From NCBI GenBank assembly GCA_947631925.1, contig CANRNE010000016.1:1-45318 (forward strand): a stretch of DNA of 45,318 nt. The letters run 5' to 3'. Of the stretch, positions 12,069 to 24,473 are shown one piece after another; position 1 is the first letter of the stretch, and each line of letters begins with the position of its first letter. The position numbers and the translations under genes were made by a program. A model generated the notes under the pieces. That model ran no database searches and was not told the DNA's origin. It saw nothing but the letters and a program-made list of their open reading frames with translations. Source of the stretch: an uncultured Clostridia bacterium. GTDB taxonomy: Bacteria > Bacillota > Clostridia > Christensenellales > Borkfalkiaceae.

Positions 12069-13070
12069 TTATTTTTCAATCCATTGTTTGAAGGCGTTGA
12101 AGGCGGAGGGGATGGCGCAAGAGGCCTCAATTTCCGCGGCGGTCTTCCAGAGGTAGTCGCAAGACATTTCGCTTGCTTCGACGAGGTAGCCCGTCATGTG
12201 CCATTCGACGTGGGTGAAGACGTGCTTGGCGCGGCGGCAGTCCATCACCTTCCCAAACTGCGCGGGGTCCATTTCTCCCTCGAAAAAGGGAAAGCCGAAG
12301 AGACCCGAAAGCAGCCCCTTTTTGCGCTTTTCGAGGGCAAATTTGTCGCCGCAGGAAAGGACGAGGACGGTGGCGTCCACCACCCGTCTCTCCCGCTTGG
12401 GAAGGCGGACGGGAAAGGCCGTTTCTTTCCCCTCCTCATGTGCTTTGCAGAGGGTCACCCACGGACATGCCCCGCACGTCGGAGCTCCGTTGGGAACACA
12501 GACGAGGGCGCCGAGCTCCATCAGCCCCTCACAAAAATCGGCGCAATTTTCGGGATAAACCGCCGCGAGCATCGCCCGAAAGCGGCGTTTTACCGCCAAA
12601 TCGTCGATATTTGAGGGGTCGGCGAGCAGACGGGTGAGAATCCGAAGGACGTTGCCGTCCACGGCGGGCTCTTTGAGCCCCAATGCGATGGAACAAACCG
12701 CCCCTGCGGTGTAATCTCCCACCCCGGGGAGAGACTTTACCCCCACCCATGTCGCGGGGAAGCCCTCACATGCGATGCGTTTTGCGGCGCGGTGCAGGTT
12801 GCGCGCCCGCGTGTAGTAGCCGAGCCCCTCCCAGCATTTGAAGACCTCGTCCTCGTCCGCCGCCGCAAGGGCCTCTGCCGTCGGGAATTGCCGCAAAAAC
12901 GCAACATATCGCGCTTTTACCGCCTCTACACGGGTCTGTTGGAGCATGAATTCCGCCACGAGCGCGGAGTACGGCGTGCGGCATTTCCGCCACGGAAGGT
13001 CGCGCTTGTTCGCGGAAAACCATTCGAGCAGGGGGGCTACCGCCCGCGCAAGGCGTTCTTCGTCCGTCAT
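12069..13070 (-). CDS. mutY: A/G-specific adenine glycosylase
   Basis: Removes adenine mispaired with 8-oxoguanine. Visible marks: E40 in AEFMLQQT (catalytic), helix-hairpin-helix LPGVGDYTAGA at 114-124, D138 in AVDGN (catalytic), and four cluster cysteines C191, C199, C202 and C208. The spacing is 7-2-5, against the usual 6-2-5 for the 4Fe-4S loop. A NUDIX-like C-terminal domain follows; the 333-residue length is normal. The start overlaps the fhs stop (TGATG), so the two genes are coupled. Confidence 0.96.
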   Translation of the reverse strand: MTDEERLARAVAPLLEWFSANKRDLPWRKCRTPYSALVAEFMLQQTRVEAVKARYVAFLRQFPTAEALAAADEDEVFKCWEGLGYYTRARNLHRAAKRIACEGFPATWVGVKSLPGVGDYTAGAVCSIALGLKEPAVDGNVLRILTRLLADPSNIDDLAVKRRFRAMLAAVYPENCADFCEGLMELGALVCVPNGAPTCGACPWVTLCKAHEEGKETAFPVRLPKRERRVVDATVLVLSCGDKFALEKRKKGLLSGLFGFPFFEGEMDPAQFGKVMDCRRAKHVFTHVEWHMTGYLVEASEMSCDYLWKTAAEIEASCAIPSAFNAFKQWIEK

Positions 13071-14734
13071 CAGAACAGCCCCGTGATGTTGCCGTTCCCG
13101 TCGACGTCGATGTTTTCGGCGGCGGGATGTTTGGGAAGTCCCGGCATGGTCATGATGTTTCCCGTGAGCACGACGACGAAGCCCGCGCCCGCGGAGACGC
13201 GCACGCTGCGAACGGTCACATCGAAGTGCTCGGGTGCGCCGGGTTTTGCGGCGTCATCCGAGAAGGAATACTGCGTTTTTGCAATACATATGGGCATTTT
13301 GCCGAATCCGAGCCGCTCGAGGTCGGCGATTTCCGCCTCCGCCTCGGGGGTGTAGACGGCGCCGTCCCCGCCGTAGATTTTCGTGACGACGGCATGGATT
13401 TTTTCCTTGATGGACCACTCCGCATCATAGCAGAAGCGGAACTTGTTCTCCGTCTCGCAGAGGCGGACGACCTCTTCGGCGAGCGCCAGCCCCCCGCGTC
13501 CCCCATCCGCCCAGACGGTGGAGAGGCAGACGTTGACGCCGAGCGCCTTGCATTCCTCGGTGACGAGGGAGATTTCCGCGTCGGTATCCGCCGAAAAGCG
13601 GTTGACGGCGACGACGACGGGGAGTCCGAACACCGTCTGCAGGTTGGAGACATGGCGGAGAAGGTTGCAGAGGCCCCTCTCGAGGGCGGGAAGATTCTCT
13701 CGGGAGAGCTCGTCCTTGGCGAGCCCGCCGTGCATCTTGAGCGCACGCACTGTCGCGACGACGACGGCACAGTCGGGGTGGAGCCCCGCCGCGCGGCATT
13801 TGATGTCGAAGAACTTTTCCGCACCCAAATCGGCGCCGAATCCCGCCTCCGTGACGACATAGTCCCCGAGCCGAAGGGCGGCGTCCGTCGCGGCGACGGA
13901 ATTGCACCCGTGGGCGATGTTGGCAAACGGCCCGCCGTGCACGAGGGCGGGCGTCCCCTCGACGGTCTGCACGAGATTGGGCAGCATGGCGTCCTTCAGG
14001 AGGGCACACATGGCGCCTGCGGCATGCAAATCCCCACAGGTGACGGGTTCTCCCTCTTTATTATAGGCGACGACGATGCGGGCAAGGCGCGCCTTGAGAT
14101 CGGAAAGGGAGGTGGCGAGGCAGAGCACCGCCATGACTTCGCTCGCGACGGTGATGTCAAAACTGTCCCGCCGCGGGACGCCCGACTTGGGGCCGCCCAA
14201 GCCATCCTCGAGATAGCGGAGCTGGCGGTCGTTCATGTCCACGCAGCGATGCCACGGGATGCGCGCCGTGTCGATGCCGAGCGCATTCCCCTGAAAGATA
14301 TGGTTGTCGAGCATGGCGGCGAGCAGGTTGTTCGCCGCGCCGATGGCATGAAAATCCCCCGTGAAGTGCAGATTGATGTCCTCCATGGGCACGACCTGCG
14401 CATAGCCACCCCCCGCGGCGCCGCCCTTGAGGCCGAACACCGGGCCCAGCGAGGGTTCGCGGAGTGCGACGACGGTGCGCTTCTTCAGGCGGGAGAGTGC
14501 GTCCGCAAGCCCGATGGTGGTCGTCGTCTTCCCCTCCCCTGCGGGGGTGGGGGTGATGGCGGTGACGAGGATGAGTTTGGCGCGCCGCTCCTTCCCCTCT
14601 ATGGCGGAGGGAAGAAGTTTCGCCTTGTATTTTCCGTAATATTCGAGGTCCTCTTCCCCGACCCCGAGCTTTTTTGCGATATCGCGGATGTGCAGCTTCT
14701 TTGCTTCCCTTGCGATTTCGATGTCTGTCTTCAT
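13070..14734 (-). CDS. fhs: Formate-tetrahydrofolate ligase
   Basis: Makes 10-formyl-tetrahydrofolate from formate, THF and ATP, for purines, initiator tRNA formylation or acetogenic carbon flow. The 554-residue protein has the P-loop [16 protein letters not shown] at about 61-76 and the [23 protein letters not shown] block. Other family segments are [26 protein letters not shown] and [18 protein letters not shown]. The ATG at 14734 has GGGAGG 5 bases upstream. Thirty further in-frame codons above it lie upstream of the promoter start site and are excluded. Confidence 0.97.
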
Positions 14735-14771
14735 GTGGCCTCCCGCGGGCGCGCGCCCGACTTCCGAATTT

Positions 14772-14800
14772 ATTATATTCCCTTTTCGCGTCGGCGTCAA
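14772..14800 (-). promoter_or_regulatory. Promoter of fhs-mutY
   Basis: Minus strand TTGACG (14800-14795), 17-base spacer, TATAAT (14777-14772), leader of about 31 bases. Confidence 0.87.
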
Positions 14801-14899
14801 GCGAATCGGCGCGGCACGGCGCAATCGGAAAAATTACGGAAAGCACCCGAGAATTGAGAGGCGTGCAAATCCGCAAAAAAATCACAAGTTTTCATTTTT

Positions 14900-14918
14900 A
14901 ACAGTTCGATATCCTGTT
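14900..14918. repeat. Inverted repeat in the fhs / tiny-ORF intergenic gap
   Basis: AACAG (14900-14904), nine bases containing GATATC, CTGTT (14914-14918). The gap from 14801 to 15002 is AT-rich with no ORF; this dyad is the only local structure I see in it. Possible operator, not assigned. Confidence 0.35.
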
Positions 14919-15002
14919 ATATTCACATTTTGTAGCGGATGAAACAGGTTTTCGTGTTTGAGAATCACAAAAAAATCATTTTGAAATTTTTTTGAAATGT
15001 GA

Positions 15003-15031
15003 TTGACGAACATCAAAAAAGGTGCTATCAT
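15003..15031 (+). promoter_or_regulatory. Promoter of the 16-codon transcription unit
   Basis: TTGACG (15003-15008), 17-base spacer, TATCAT (15026-15031). Start site near 15038. A small GGGC/GCCC hairpin (15045-15057) lies in the leader just before the ribosome site. Confidence 0.82.
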
Positions 15032-15080
15032 AGGGCCGATTTCAGGGCGGAAAGCCCGAGAAAAAAGGAGGAGCGCGGAT

Positions 15081-15131
15081 ATGAAATTCTTTCGCTGGCT
15101 GCGCTATGTCAGAAGCCTGATGAGGGCCTGA
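15081..15131 (+). CDS. Tiny cationic peptide ORF (16 residues)
   Basis: ATG at 15081 follows a strong AAGGAGG site (9-base spacing) and reads MKFFRWLRYVRSLMRA before TGA. The peptide has one Lys and four Arg, no acidic residue, and alternating bulky hydrophobics, so it would form a strongly amphipathic helix. It has its own promoter 50 bases upstream and a terminator 36 bases downstream, so the whole message is about 155 bases. Possible roles: membrane-active small protein, type I-like toxin, or a leader peptide on a small RNA. I do not recognise a family. The isolated promoter, ribosome site, ORF and terminator together make a chance ORF unlikely. Confidence 0.68.
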   Translation: MKFFRWLRYVRSLMRA

Positions 15132-15145
15132 ACACCAAAGACAAC

Positions 15146-15160
15146 TTGTGCTTTGCACAA
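15146..15160 (+). other. Small hairpin 3' of the tiny ORF
   Basis: TTGTGC (15146-15151), loop TTT, GCACAA (15155-15160), between the tiny ORF and the terminator. It may protect or structure the 3' end of the short transcript. Confidence 0.45.
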
Positions 15161-15197
15161 AAAACAGACCTCTGCCGCGCGCAGAGGTCCTCTTTTT
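15161..15197. terminator. Bidirectional terminator of the tiny unit and the SDR gene
   Basis: Perfect 9-bp stem GACCTCTGC (15167-15175) with GCAGAGGTC (15181-15189), loop CGCGC. Plus strand continues CTCTTTTTATTT; minus strand continues TGTTTTTTG. Confidence 0.87.
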
Positions 15198-15996
15198 ATT
15201 TCTGGTTGAATTTTTTGCGGACGAGCCAGTCGGTGACGCGCTCGGGCAGGACGCGGGAGGCGTAGCGCACGAAGTTGTTCACCCCGCCCACGGCGGTGAC
15301 GGGAGGCGGGTTTCTGCGGCCTGCGAGCTTGAGAACGGCCTCGGCGACGATGGAGGGGCTCACGCCGCCCTGTTCCATGTTGGCAAGTGCGGCGGAGGCC
15401 TTCTTCACCGAGGGGGAATAGGACAGGCTCTCGGGCTCCTTATAGACGCGGCGGTTGTAGGTGAAGTCGGTGGCGGTGCCTCCGGGGAGCAGGGCGGAGA
15501 CGCGCACGCCGTAGGGACGAAGTTCCATATCCGCCTCGCGGGCGAGCATGGAAAGAGCCGCCTTGGAGGAGGAGTAGAAGCTGTCATACGGGATGGGAAG
15601 GTCTGCCCCCATCGAGCCGACGAGAATGGCTCTTCCCCCTCTCCGCTTCAAGAAGGGAGCGGCGGCACGGAGGGTCTCCACCGCGCCGAAGTAGTTGACC
15701 TCGAAGAGGTAGCGGTAGTCCCCGCTCTTGGCGTGTTCGATGGGCGCCGCCATGGAGAATCCCGCCGAATAGACGACGAGGTCGATGGCGCCCGTCTCCT
15801 CCCCGCAGTGCAAGACGGCGGCGGCGATTTCCCCCTCCCGTGCGGCGTCCGCGGGGTAAGTCGTGACGCGCTCCCCCTTGAACGGGGTGCGGGAGACGTT
15901 GAACACGCGGTAGCCCTTCGAGAGAAGTTTTAAGGCGGTCTCACGGCCAATCCCGGACGAGCCGCCGACGATTACTGCGGTGCGTCTTGCGGACAT
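15196..15996 (-). CDS. Short-chain dehydrogenase/reductase
   Basis: A classical SDR of about 266 residues. The cofactor turn GGSSGIG is at residues 10-16 and the NNAG-equivalent VYSAG near 85. The catalytic set is Ser in VGSMG plus Y-S-S-S-K. R-x-P-F after beta-2 suggests NADP(H). A hydrophobic C-terminus with terminal K-K-F-N-Q-K is seen in membrane-linked SDRs. Substrate unknown. No start has a good ribosome site. ATG 15996 gives the standard SDR opening (MSARRTAVIVGG), while ATG 16077 and TTG 16116 would add a lysine- and glutamate-rich extension of 27 or 40 residues. It may be read from the ZIP gene upstream. Confidence 0.85.
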   Translation of the reverse strand: MSARRTAVIVGGSSGIGRETALKLLSKGYRVFNVSRTPFKGERVTTYPADAAREGEIAAAVLHCGEETGAIDLVVYSAGFSMAAPIEHAKSGDYRYLFEVNYFGAVETLRAAAPFLKRRGGRAILVGSMGADLPIPYDSFYSSSKAALSMLAREADMELRPYGVRVSALLPGGTATDFTYNRRVYKEPESLSYSPSVKKASAALANMEQGGVSPSIVAEAVLKLAGRRNPPPVTAVGGVNNFVRYASRVLPERVTDWLVRKKFNQK

Positions 15997-16127
15997 GGTA
16001 TGGTCGTTTGCCGTCTCAAAGTTCTTTTCCTGCTTTTCCGCCTCCGTCTTTTTCGGGGCGGTCGTTTCCGATTTCATACCCGAAGTATGGGCGATTCGGA
16101 CGTTCTTATTCCGCAAACGGAAAATTT

Positions 16128-16895
16128 TTATCCGAGCGCGACGTCGAGCACCATCATCAGGGCAAATCCAAGCACGACGCCGAGGGTGGCGACCGTCTTG
16201 TTGCCCTCAAAGCACTCGGGAATGAGCTCCGCGCAGACGACGGCAATCATCGCGCCCGCCGAAAAGGAGAGCGCCCACGGCAAGAATCCCCCCGCGGCCG
16301 CGGAGACGAGCGCGCCGAGGATGCAGGCGGGGATTTCCACGGCGCCCGAGCCCGCGGAATAGAGAAAACACTTCCACGGGGGCATCCCGGAGGCGCGAAG
16401 CGGAAAGGCGACACACGCCCCCTCGGGGAAGTTCTGGACGGCAATCCCGAATGCAAACACGAGCGCCGCGGCGACCGTTCCCGCGTCCCTTGCCGCCGCG
16501 AGCGCCACGCCGACCGCCATCCCCTCGGGGATGTTGTGCAGGGTGACGGCGAGAAACATCAGCGCGTTTTTCCGCCCCATTCCGCACTTTTTGGGAGTTT
16601 TGCGCGAAAATATGAGGTCGGAGACGAGGAGAAATCCCCCACCGAGGACAAAGCCCAGCGTCACGGTGAGATAGCTCGGCAGGGCGCTTGGGTAGGAGAG
16701 CGCGGGAAGGAGCAGAGAGAAGAAACTTGCGGCCGTCATAATTCCCGCCGACAGCCCCAAGAGAAGGGTGAGCGCGGCGGGACGGAATTTTTTGGAGACG
16801 AACACGAGCGCTGCGCCGAGCGCGGTGGAAGCAAATAAAAAGAAGGAGACGAGGACCGCCTGTTGCCACGTCTCCAATCCGAAAAACCACAGCAT
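16128..16895 (-). CDS. ZIP family metal (zinc) transporter
   Basis: A 255-residue membrane protein with about eight spans. Span IV holds HNIPEG and span V QNFPEG, the paired metal-site motifs of ZIP carriers, with E-L-I-P-E in a later span. ZupT-type members import zinc and other divalent metals. The second motif has Q in place of the first His, common in the GufA-like subgroup. The ATG at 16895 is 13 bases after a GGGGG stretch; the leader can form an imperfect hairpin over this site. It follows galM by 66 bases. Confidence 0.92.
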   Translation of the reverse strand: MLWFFGLETWQQAVLVSFFLFASTALGAALVFVSKKFRPAALTLLLGLSAGIMTAASFFSLLLPALSYPSALPSYLTVTLGFVLGGGFLLVSDLIFSRKTPKKCGMGRKNALMFLAVTLHNIPEGMAVGVALAAARDAGTVAAALVFAFGIAVQNFPEGACVAFPLRASGMPPWKCFLYSAGSGAVEIPACILGALVSAAAGGFLPWALSFSAGAMIAVVCAELIPECFEGNKTVATLGVVLGFALMMVLDVALG

Positions 16896-16930
16896 TGGTG
16901 AGACCCCCGTAAAAATGCGGTCACCTCATC
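16896..16930 (-). promoter_or_regulatory. Imperfect hairpin over the ZIP gene ribosome-binding region
   Basis: On the minus strand GGTGACCG pairs in parts with CGG and TCACC further down, closing around an ATTTTT loop and including the G-rich ribosome site directly before the ATG. It could hide the site; whether it responds to metal is not visible. Confidence 0.35.
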
Positions 16931-16961
16931 GTATGCCGTCTTTTCGCCCTTTCGTGCAGGG

Positions 16962-17972
16962 TTACTTTTCGATGCCGAATTTGTATTCCACGGTGTGGTC
17001 GTAGACCTCGCCGGGATTCAAGAAGGAGCTCCCGAGCGCGCAATACTCGGGGACATTGACGTTGTTGGGAATGAGCTGTGCCTCGAGGCAGAGCCCCGTG
17101 TGCGGCTCGAAGGCGCCGAAGAGCTCGTTGCCCGTGTAGAACTGGGCGCAGGGCAAATCGGTGAAGAGTTTGAGACGAATGCCCGTCCGCTCCCCCTTGA
17201 CTTCCATGAATTCCCCCTCCCCGTCCCGCACGTAGGAATGGTTGTAGCCGTGCTCGGTGAGCAAGCTGAGGTCCCCCTTGATGTCCCGCCCAATCTCCTT
17301 CGGGTTGTTGAAATCGAACGCGGTGCCCGCAACGGGGCGGAACCCGCCGACGCATGCCATCGTCTCGTCCGTCCTGACGATTTTGGAGGAGTTGATGCGC
17401 ACGATGTGCCCCAAGATGTCCCCCGAACCGATGCCGTTGAGATTGAAATAGGTATGATTGGTGAGATTGACCGCCGTGGGCGCCTCCGTCGTGGCGCGGT
17501 AGCGAATGCGGAAACAGCCATCGTGAAGGGTATAGACCACGGTTGCCGTGAGCCGCCCGGGATACCCCTCCTCGCCGTCGGGAGAAATGTAGGTGAGCGC
17601 GAGGGCGTCGCCCACAACCGCCGCGGAGAAGAGCTTTCGCCCGAACCCGTTTTCCCCGCCGTGGAGATGGTTGCCGCGGTCGTTGCAGGGAAGTTGATAG
17701 AGGGTGCCGCCGATGACGAGCCGCCCGTCCTTGATGCGGTTGGCGCATCTGCCGACGACGGCTCCCACCTGAAAGCTGTCGTGCTCGTAACCGTCCACCG
17801 TCGGATAGCCGAGGGCGATGGGGACGGAGAATCCGCTCGCGTCGGGGACGCGGATGCTCTGCACCGCTCCGCCCAAATCGAGGACGGTGACTTCCATTGC
17901 CCCGTCCCGCAAGGTATATGCGTGGACCTTTCTTCCGTCCGAAAGCGTCCCGAATTCTCTTACCGTAATCAT
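16962..17972 (-). CDS. galM: Aldose 1-epimerase (mutarotase)
   Basis: Interconverts alpha and beta sugar anomers. The 336-residue protein has the substrate-binding blocks VGRCANRI and NHLHGG, the catalytic His in NLTNHTYFNLNG and the catalytic Glu in GLCLEAQLIPN. The ATG at 17972 has GGGAGG 6 bases upstream. An ATG seven codons earlier and a longer reading up to 18077 are rejected because they cross the transcription start. No gal or rha genes adjoin it. Confidence 0.95.
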   Translation of the reverse strand: MITVREFGTLSDGRKVHAYTLRDGAMEVTVLDLGGAVQSIRVPDASGFSVPIALGYPTVDGYEHDSFQVGAVVGRCANRIKDGRLVIGGTLYQLPCNDRGNHLHGGENGFGRKLFSAAVVGDALALTYISPDGEEGYPGRLTATVVYTLHDGCFRIRYRATTEAPTAVNLTNHTYFNLNGIGSGDILGHIVRINSSKIVRTDETMACVGGFRPVAGTAFDFNNPKEIGRDIKGDLSLLTEHGYNHSYVRDGEGEFMEVKGERTGIRLKLFTDLPCAQFYTGNELFGAFEPHTGLCLEAQLIPNNVNVPEYCALGSSFLNPGEVYDHTVEYKFGIEK

Positions 17973-24204: not shown

Positions 24205-24281
<77 letters not shown>

Positions 24282-24284
24282 TAT

Positions 24285-24361
24285 GGCGATGTAGCTTAGC
24301 TGGTTAGAGCGATCGGTTCATACCCGATAGGTCAGCGGTTCGAATCCACTCATCGCTACCA
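24285..24361 (+). tRNA. Elongator tRNA-Met (CAU)
   Basis: 77 bases with encoded CCA. Loop TTCATAC gives anticodon CAU. The G1-U72 pair and overall body match the elongator Met tRNA of Bacillus rather than tRNA-Ile2. The T stem AGCGG/CCACT holds one C51-A63 mismatch. Confidence 0.93.
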
Positions 24362-24398
24362 GCAATTTGCGGCAAAGTCCGTTTGAATATCAAAACAA

Positions 24399-24473
24399 GG
24401 CCCGTTGGTCAAGCGGTTAAGACATCACCCTTTCACGGTGGTATCGTGGGTTCGATTCCCGCACGGGTCACCA
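24399..24473 (+). tRNA. tRNA-Glu (UUC)
   Basis: 75 bases with encoded CCA; anticodon loop CTTTCAC gives UUC. Acceptor, D, anticodon (TCACC/GGTGG) and T stems (GTGGG/CCCGC) all pair. Last gene of the cluster. Confidence 0.96.

Follow-up and report, generated by a model that had tools for sequence, protein, structure and literature searches.

A 16-codon gene with a putative double-operator promoter in Borkfalkiaceae: the single-peptide form of a diversifying micro-peptide operon

Introduction

Does the gap between the genes of a formate–tetrahydrofolate ligase (13070–14824, minus strand) and of a short-chain dehydrogenase (SDR; 15196–16116, minus strand) in an uncultured Clostridia bacterium of the family Borkfalkiaceae contain a gene of its own, and if so, what could its very short product do? 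Both flanking genes were named by inspection of their translations, and all positions are those of the window, that is, the whole analysed stretch of 45,318 nucleotides. Peptides as short as the one considered here are normally missed by gene finders. A preliminary description had proposed that the gap harbors a self-contained transcription unit for a cationic peptide of 16 residues, which might be a membrane-active small protein or a type I-like toxin, or else a dual-function small RNA. The self-contained gene of a real cationic micro-peptide is upheld by our analysis, as related peptides with synonymous change exist in other species and the promoter layout is common to two genera of gut Clostridia; thus the unit is more than a chance arrangement. 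The type I-like toxin and the small RNA, on the contrary, are not supported, and the peptide may yet be membrane-active. The parts of the unit had been recognized correctly, but the double dyad upstream of it and the multi-peptide family to which it belongs had been overlooked.

Results

Organization of the transcription unit

By direct reading and by a scan of positions 15003–15197 the promoter, the AAGGAGG site, the ORF of 16 codons and the terminator were all found where they had been proposed. The promoter (15003–15031, plus strand) is of the sigma-A type, TTGACG-17-TATCAT with an extended −10 element (TGC), and is also recovered by the pattern search and the 74-locus profile described below. 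Its −35 element TTGACG (15003–15008) and its −10 element TATCAT (15026–15031) are separated by a spacer of 17 nt with the TG at 15023–15024, and 10 of the 12 positions match the consensus. The Shine–Dalgarno sequence AAGGAGG (15065–15071, plus strand; read directly) lies 9 nt before the ATG of the ORF (15081–15131, plus strand; ATG at 15081, stop codon TGA at 15129–15131), which codes for the peptide MKFFRWLRYVRSLMRA, referred to as LRY peptide in the following. The scan places an intrinsic terminator at 15167–15199, consisting of a 9-bp stem GACCTCTGC/GCAGAGGTC (15167–15189) followed by CTCTTTTTAT. It scores for the convergent SDR gene as well and would thus be a bidirectional terminator common to both genes.

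The two additional hairpins described around the ORF are both present: a 5′ leader hairpin GGGC-GGAAA-GCCC (15045–15057, plus strand), identified by direct reading and folding, and a short hairpin TTGTGC-TTT-GCACAA (15146–15160, plus strand), identified in the same way, for which no counterpart can be seen when the carrier loci are aligned. Folding of the RNA from 15035 to 15200, terminator included, gave a z-score of −3.2 versus shuffles. The unit from 15003 to 15197 contains no tRNA and has no Rfam match at gathering thresholds; elsewhere in the window, two tRNA-Met genes and one tRNA-Glu gene form a cluster at 24205–24473.

Conservation of the LRY peptide

In a DNA search of 61 genomes the ORF was matched, besides in the window, only in genome G025, there twice and in two tandem copies that occupy the same place as the unit of the window, 3′ of the SDR gene; 15 other genomes matched at the SDR end only. 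At this locus (L019/L023) the ORF has been duplicated together with its ribosome-binding site, and the single match to the promoter pattern is found before the 5′ copy. Copies in G114 and G112 were found with a degenerate codon pattern. At E < 0.1, a profile of these five peptides identified only the four carriers G000 (the window), G025, G114, and G112 when all 103 genomes of the genus were searched. The order-wide profile search added G256 from a second genus, here called g26 (E 1.2e-6), and a profile including G256 added G602 (E 6.9e-8) and G575 (E 6.8e-4) from 398 genomes of the family; the copy of G575 was confirmed by reading downstream of its promoter. The copies of G256, G602, and G575 were each absent from the search profile when they were scored. 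Altogether eight LRY copies are present in seven genomes, four of the window's genus and three of the second genus.

Several candidates were rejected. The order-wide search (396 genomes) yielded 13 genomes at E 0.05 or better, from which only G000, G114, and G256 were accepted; the remaining loci lie inside longer frames or in start-less frames, and this also holds for the top-scoring locus beyond the family (G160, E 0.0013). An exact-pattern scan of the genome contigs gave seven stretches, namely the carriers G114, G025, and G112 and four stretches judged to be chance, among them a 20-codon ORF in Gracilibacillus. The same scan of viral contigs gave 12 stretches, none of which contains an LRY peptide on translation.

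The alignment of the eight copies can be summarized as M[KR][FIL][FIL]x[WY]LRY[VI]xSL[ML] with invariant M, L, R, Y, S, and L; the copy of G112 has one extra Lys. The core is LRY[VI]xSL, whereas the C-terminus is variable. Frame-breaking changes were sought in the relatives, and the frame is intact in all eight copies. For seven of the eight copies (G575 was left out of this test and of the charge and amphipathicity tests) synonymous changes are in excess, with a pooled pN of 0.18, a pS of 0.71, and a ratio of 0.25 in 21 pairs, each pair offering only about nine synonymous sites. For genes so short the null test on single pairs is weak: P was below 0.05 in four of seven pairs, and the comparison of G000 with G602 gave P 0.46. 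Taken together, the comparison of codons shows that the LRY ORF is under purifying selection. Nevertheless, the gene must be dispensable in the window's genus, as only 4 of the 103 species carry it.

The net charge of MKFFRWLRYVRSLMRA, estimated before at about +5, was computed to be +5, and the seven copies range from +2 to +5. The peptide had also been described as amphipathic. It has a modest hydrophobic moment (muH 0.59), but 9% of the shuffles of the same residues reach this value, which is thus not significant; the six relatives are lower (0.38–0.54), and significance against residue shuffles was reached by none of the seven copies. The mean Eisenberg hydrophobicity of MKFFRWLRYVRSLMRA is −0.20, unlike that of a hydrophobic membrane-spanning toxin.

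The double-dyad promoter

Upstream of the unit we found two dyads which are putative operators. Dyad 1, TGTTT-GAGAA-TCACA (14955–14969), starts 48 bp before the TTGAC, and dyad 2, TGTGA-TTGAC-GAACA (14998–15012), starts 43 bp after dyad 1 and lies over the −35 element. A possible third half-site TTCACA (14922–14927, plus strand; counted by eye) ends 27 nt before dyad 1. In the six loci compared first (G000, G114, G112, G025, G256, and G602) a dyad TGTTW-N5-WHACA is located exactly 48 bp before the TTGAC without exception. The second dyad (TGTDA, TTGAC, KAACA), 43 bp after the first and over the −35 element, is present in four of the six; G025 has lost it and G112 has lost part of it. TTCACA or TTAACA occurs at the distance of the third half-site in G114, G025, G256, and G602 and is absent in G112.

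A pattern composed of dyad 1, a fixed gap of 33 bp, TTGAC, and TATNNT was then used to search the 398 family genomes; since this pattern imposes the spacing on the loci it finds, the spacing of dyad 1 is tested by the first six loci only. Eighty genomes matched, and the reversed control gave two matches. In the window's genus the matches are exactly the 4 LRY carriers among 103 genomes. In g26 the pattern is present in 73 genomes, and 71 of 93 (the latter number counted by hand) have the true layout, G539 (read) and G578 (by its matched letters) being set aside as they are without it. In all, 75 genomes, each representing a single species, have the layout, mostly once; G549 and G575 have two promoter copies each. 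Three matches in other genera were judged unrelated: G633 and G662 revealed on inspection no cassette for LRY peptides or for the CAR peptides described below, and behind the match in G501 lies a longer ORF that is unrelated. Outside the family, 181 genomes of the order gave one match (G170), judged to be chance. Exact matching misses variants, as exemplified by G230, where a similar promoter that differs by one letter in dyad 1 precedes CAR peptides.

A conservation profile was calculated from 74 of the 77 loci (L103, L132, and L133, which have less than 60 nt of sequence ahead of the dyad, were dropped). Its fully invariant columns TGTT, ACA, TTGAC, TAT, and T follow from the search pattern itself. 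Conservation that the pattern does not impose is seen in a block about 7–36 nt before dyad 1, with TTAACA at the distance of the third half-site, in the A/T tract between the dyads (AAAAATTTTT), in TGTTA before and TA after the TTGAC, and in the TG and the ACT end of the −10 element. The spacing from TTGAC to TAT is 18 in 72 loci and 19 in two, with 16–20 having been allowed, and TGTNNTTGACNNACA, which corresponds to dyad 2, is found in 71 of the 77 loci.

Operons behind the promoter

Behind this promoter layout, the loci of g26 have between one and about six small ORFs in tandem with Shine–Dalgarno sequences, although some short ORFs in these lists may be due to chance. Under a fixed rule, such an ORF follows within 260 nt in 76 of the 77 loci, the remaining one (L108) having a weaker site. 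By the same rule 58 loci code for a CAR peptide (within 700 nt), seven for an LRY peptide (within 260 nt), one of these seven for both, and 13 for neither. CAR peptides follow roughly the scheme MxIY[DE]xLNxLDE...G[VI]SPLSYVVLNCAR and are acidic and mostly 30–32 residues long; their C-terminus is conserved and resembles SPLSYVVLNCAR, and their middle varies. All 70 distinct CAR peptides have a net charge of −1 to −9; the filter behind this set missed loci, seven of which were recovered later. The operon of G575 encodes an LRY peptide, a CAR peptide, and a third acidic peptide together, and this operon ties the peptide of the window to the wider family. Thus, the unit of the window belongs to a diversifying type of micro-peptide operon that is restricted to this lineage, and represents its single-peptide form.

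Further cassettes encode unlike peptides, many with a short aromatic-hydrophobic stretch and Asn/Cys-x-Arg at the end, for which common descent is possible. Two cassettes, L098 (G546) and L112 (G549), contain another peptide type (MYDFDEIEKLDNIEMM...FASMLMF). The six-ORF operon of L104 (G552) opens with three tandem variants containing Cys and His (MDMYKNLTQTCITHCMNYC...) at +70, +245, and +420 after the −10 element, and these peptides are possibly metal-binding. The acidic second ORF of G256 was considered as a fixed partner of the LRY ORF and rejected, since neither G602 nor the window has it downstream of the LRY ORF.

Eight cassette peptides gave only sub-threshold matches against Pfam, NCBIfam, and PHROGs (E 0.009 or worse), and the best match of the CAR profile to PDB sequences had an E-value of 0.028. 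In viral contigs the CAR search gave three stretches by pattern, none of which was confirmed. With tblastn, one CAR peptide matched phages only at E = 4 (two records of one phage) and plasmids not at all. Among 248 genomes of the order the CAR profile recovered five from the second genus; elsewhere it gave a single weak match, inside a 351-codon frame. A literature search, including 'Borkfalkiaceae' together with small protein, returned no paper that names an LRY or CAR family in its title or in the opening of its abstract.

The leader of the wider family also has a common feature. Of 74 leaders, 51 have a stem of 5 bp or more anchored near the 5′ end, with 36 different stems among them; the controls gave a mean of 10.5 when the 3′ part was shuffled and a mean of 26 (maximum 36) when the partners were swapped between loci. 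The hairpin therefore seems, as judged from this covariation, to be maintained through compensatory changes. Four of the seven LRY loci (G114, G025, G602, and G575) pass the rule and three fail, among them the window, whose own leader hairpin has only 4 bp. Perhaps the hairpin at 15045–15057 is nonetheless the counterpart of the covarying one.

Neighboring genes and candidate regulators

In the window's genus, three carriers have the cassette on the 3′ side of the SDR gene; the contig of G112 ends too early to show its position. In an SDR tree of 18 species, the 15 non-carriers of which matched in the DNA search at the SDR end only, the three carriers with the SDR gene on the contig require two changes, with partly weak support of the relevant branches. 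It follows that loss or gain of the cassette probably happened repeatedly. The stretches fetched around the cassettes contain, with names given by inspection, an M23 peptidase gene at 43 loci, usually directly upstream, an adenine-deaminase-like gene at 12, and an alcohol-dehydrogenase-like gene at eight.

None of the fetched stretches points to one regulator gene that accompanies all cassettes; a gene of the XRE helix-turn-helix type, classified by inspection, is present at seven of them. At 31 loci of the second genus, the stretch fetched includes a MocR/GntR-aminotransferase gene on the 3′ side of the cassette, in most cases convergent with it, and MocR dimers are able to bridge two sites. 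MocR was nevertheless rejected as the regulator, as all four carriers in the window's genus are without a match at E 1e-10; the matches in 8 of the 103 genomes are all in non-carriers and are partial or about 25% identical, the best one being partial with 38% identity.

We also sought a regulon. In ten genomes TGTTA-N5-TAACA occurs at 34 sites, 11 of them in cassettes. The 23 other sites compare with 24 in the reversed control, ten of which come from G000; without G000 the numbers are 22 and 14. Ten of the 23 sites were read, and the genes downstream are unrelated with none shared. Owing to this near-chance rate of sites and the lack of a shared gene at the ten sites, we regard a dedicated regulator as more probable than a global one; a small regulon is possible. 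Together with the lack of a MocR match in the carriers, the near-chance rate leads us to a working assumption of a dedicated but unlinked regulator.

Discussion

Our comparison of genomes shows the LRY ORF to be a genuine gene which codes for a basic, aromatic peptide of 16 residues and stands alone in its terminated transcription unit. The dedicated promoter is probably repressed. In the model that we propose, which takes the repression from the position of the dyads alone, a dedicated DNA-binding dimer would sit cooperatively on both dyads, which are separated by about four helical turns that include an A/T tract, and would block the near-consensus −35 element and the extended −10 element. 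A signal that removes the dimer would allow a burst of peptide from the strong promoter and the strong Shine–Dalgarno sequence. As the least certain step, the peptide would act as a small binding effector inside the producing cell and might dock with its conserved [WY]LRY[VI]xSL core on a protein or on a partner at the membrane surface. On balance, and with modest confidence, we lean towards this explanation as a whole: a selected micro-protein gene with a repressible dedicated promoter and an intracellular binding-effector peptide.

More tentatively, and with considerable doubt, the operons could form a new class of peptide-effector or peptide-signal operon in which one dedicated regulator and a rigid double-operator promoter serve two genera that shuffle and diversify peptides of 16–48 residues (basic LRY, acidic CAR, and acidic or Cys-rich third peptides), with the peptides jointly acting on a common partner. 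Either way, the conserved handle is the promoter and not the peptide, as about 100 bp of regulatory DNA mark a micro-peptide locus. Micro-proteins can thus be found by their regulation, and the family is a testable case in which the output diversifies behind a nearly frozen switch.

The strongest rival is a role in signalling. The ORF would then code for a pro-signal peptide whose promoter is controlled by a cytosolic receptor reading the mature peptide, as in Rgg/SHP or ComR/ComS. The shp and comS pheromone genes of these systems are tiny ORFs whose promoters have inverted-repeat operators. The dyads would provide such an inverted-repeat operator, as expected for RRNPP and Rgg/SHP systems, and the small size of the peptides, the tandem variant copies, the CAR peptides with their conserved C-terminus behind a variable middle, and the XRE-type genes at seven cassettes all fit. 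However, RRNPP systems are described as pairs of adjacent genes (PMC10075063), whereas the ligase and SDR genes leave no adjoining receptor gene at the window's unit and no single regulator is found beside all cassettes. In addition, the C-terminus of the LRY peptides is variable and, unlike shp and comS, the unit has a near-consensus promoter and its relatives encode several dissimilar peptides per operon. We regard a signalling role as rather unlikely.

A type I-like or membrane-active toxin, kept in check by repression or by an antisense RNA, would agree with the short cationic peptide, the strong promoter with dyads, and the one tandem duplication. Type I toxins such as TisB and Ibs are short peptides under tight control, a likeness which for the LRY unit holds as far as its putative operators do. 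In contrast to these toxins, the LRY peptide is devoid of a hydrophobic membrane-spanning stretch and the unit contains no promoter-like site for an antisense RNA; the only such site on the minus strand that a consensus scan of 13000–17000 detected (14800–14772) lies outside the unit. The lack of significant amphipathicity and the uniformly acidic CAR peptides of the sister cassettes also argue against a toxin, and the LRY[VI]xSL core is more specific than a generic amphipathic peptide requires. A toxin is therefore improbable, and it is the specific core, the missing antisense site, and the acidic companions that let us favor a binding effector over a pore-forming peptide. A further short peptide for comparison is SpoVM, a membrane-binding protein of 26 residues in spore formers. 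Its gene resembles the LRY gene in standing alone and in encoding a very short basic peptide; unlike SpoVM, the LRY gene has a sigma-A type promoter with dyads, and its relatives encode acidic peptides.

It appears very improbable that the unit is a dual-function small RNA which base-pairs with targets. A terminated RNA of about 155 nt with hairpins would suit this role, and many members of the wider family have a leader hairpin. AzuCR is a dual-function small RNA gene with the short peptide AzuC. VcdRP is described as the same kind of gene, with the 29-residue VcdP (PMC8672173). Both are like the window's unit in being isolated, regulated small RNA genes with one short peptide, a likeness of gene layout that implies no relation in sequence. 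In contrast to them, the RNA of this unit is little conserved beyond the ORF, and its promoter serves operons for several peptides in relatives. Loci from the four species that carry the gene in the window's genus align little beyond promoter and ORF, and neither the five-row alignment of the carrier loci, inspected by eye, nor Rfam revealed a conserved base-pairing region outside the ORF.

A leader or attenuator peptide for a downstream gene, suggested by the very short ORF with its strong Shine–Dalgarno sequence and nearby hairpins, can hardly be entertained, nor can a chance ORF, as both are largely excluded by the conservation data: the coding signal is conserved, a terminator follows the ORF, and the next long ORF is convergent in six of seven LRY loci (in the seventh, G112, the contig ends), so the LRY peptide is not a leader.

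A dyad of the same kind also occurs apart from the cassettes. In a third genus of the family, locus L155 (G633) has a promoter with a TGTTA-N5-TAACA dyad at another spacing, and behind it lie several mini-ORFs of about two to ten codons that are preceded by Shine–Dalgarno sequences, some with GGAG...CTCC inverted repeats.
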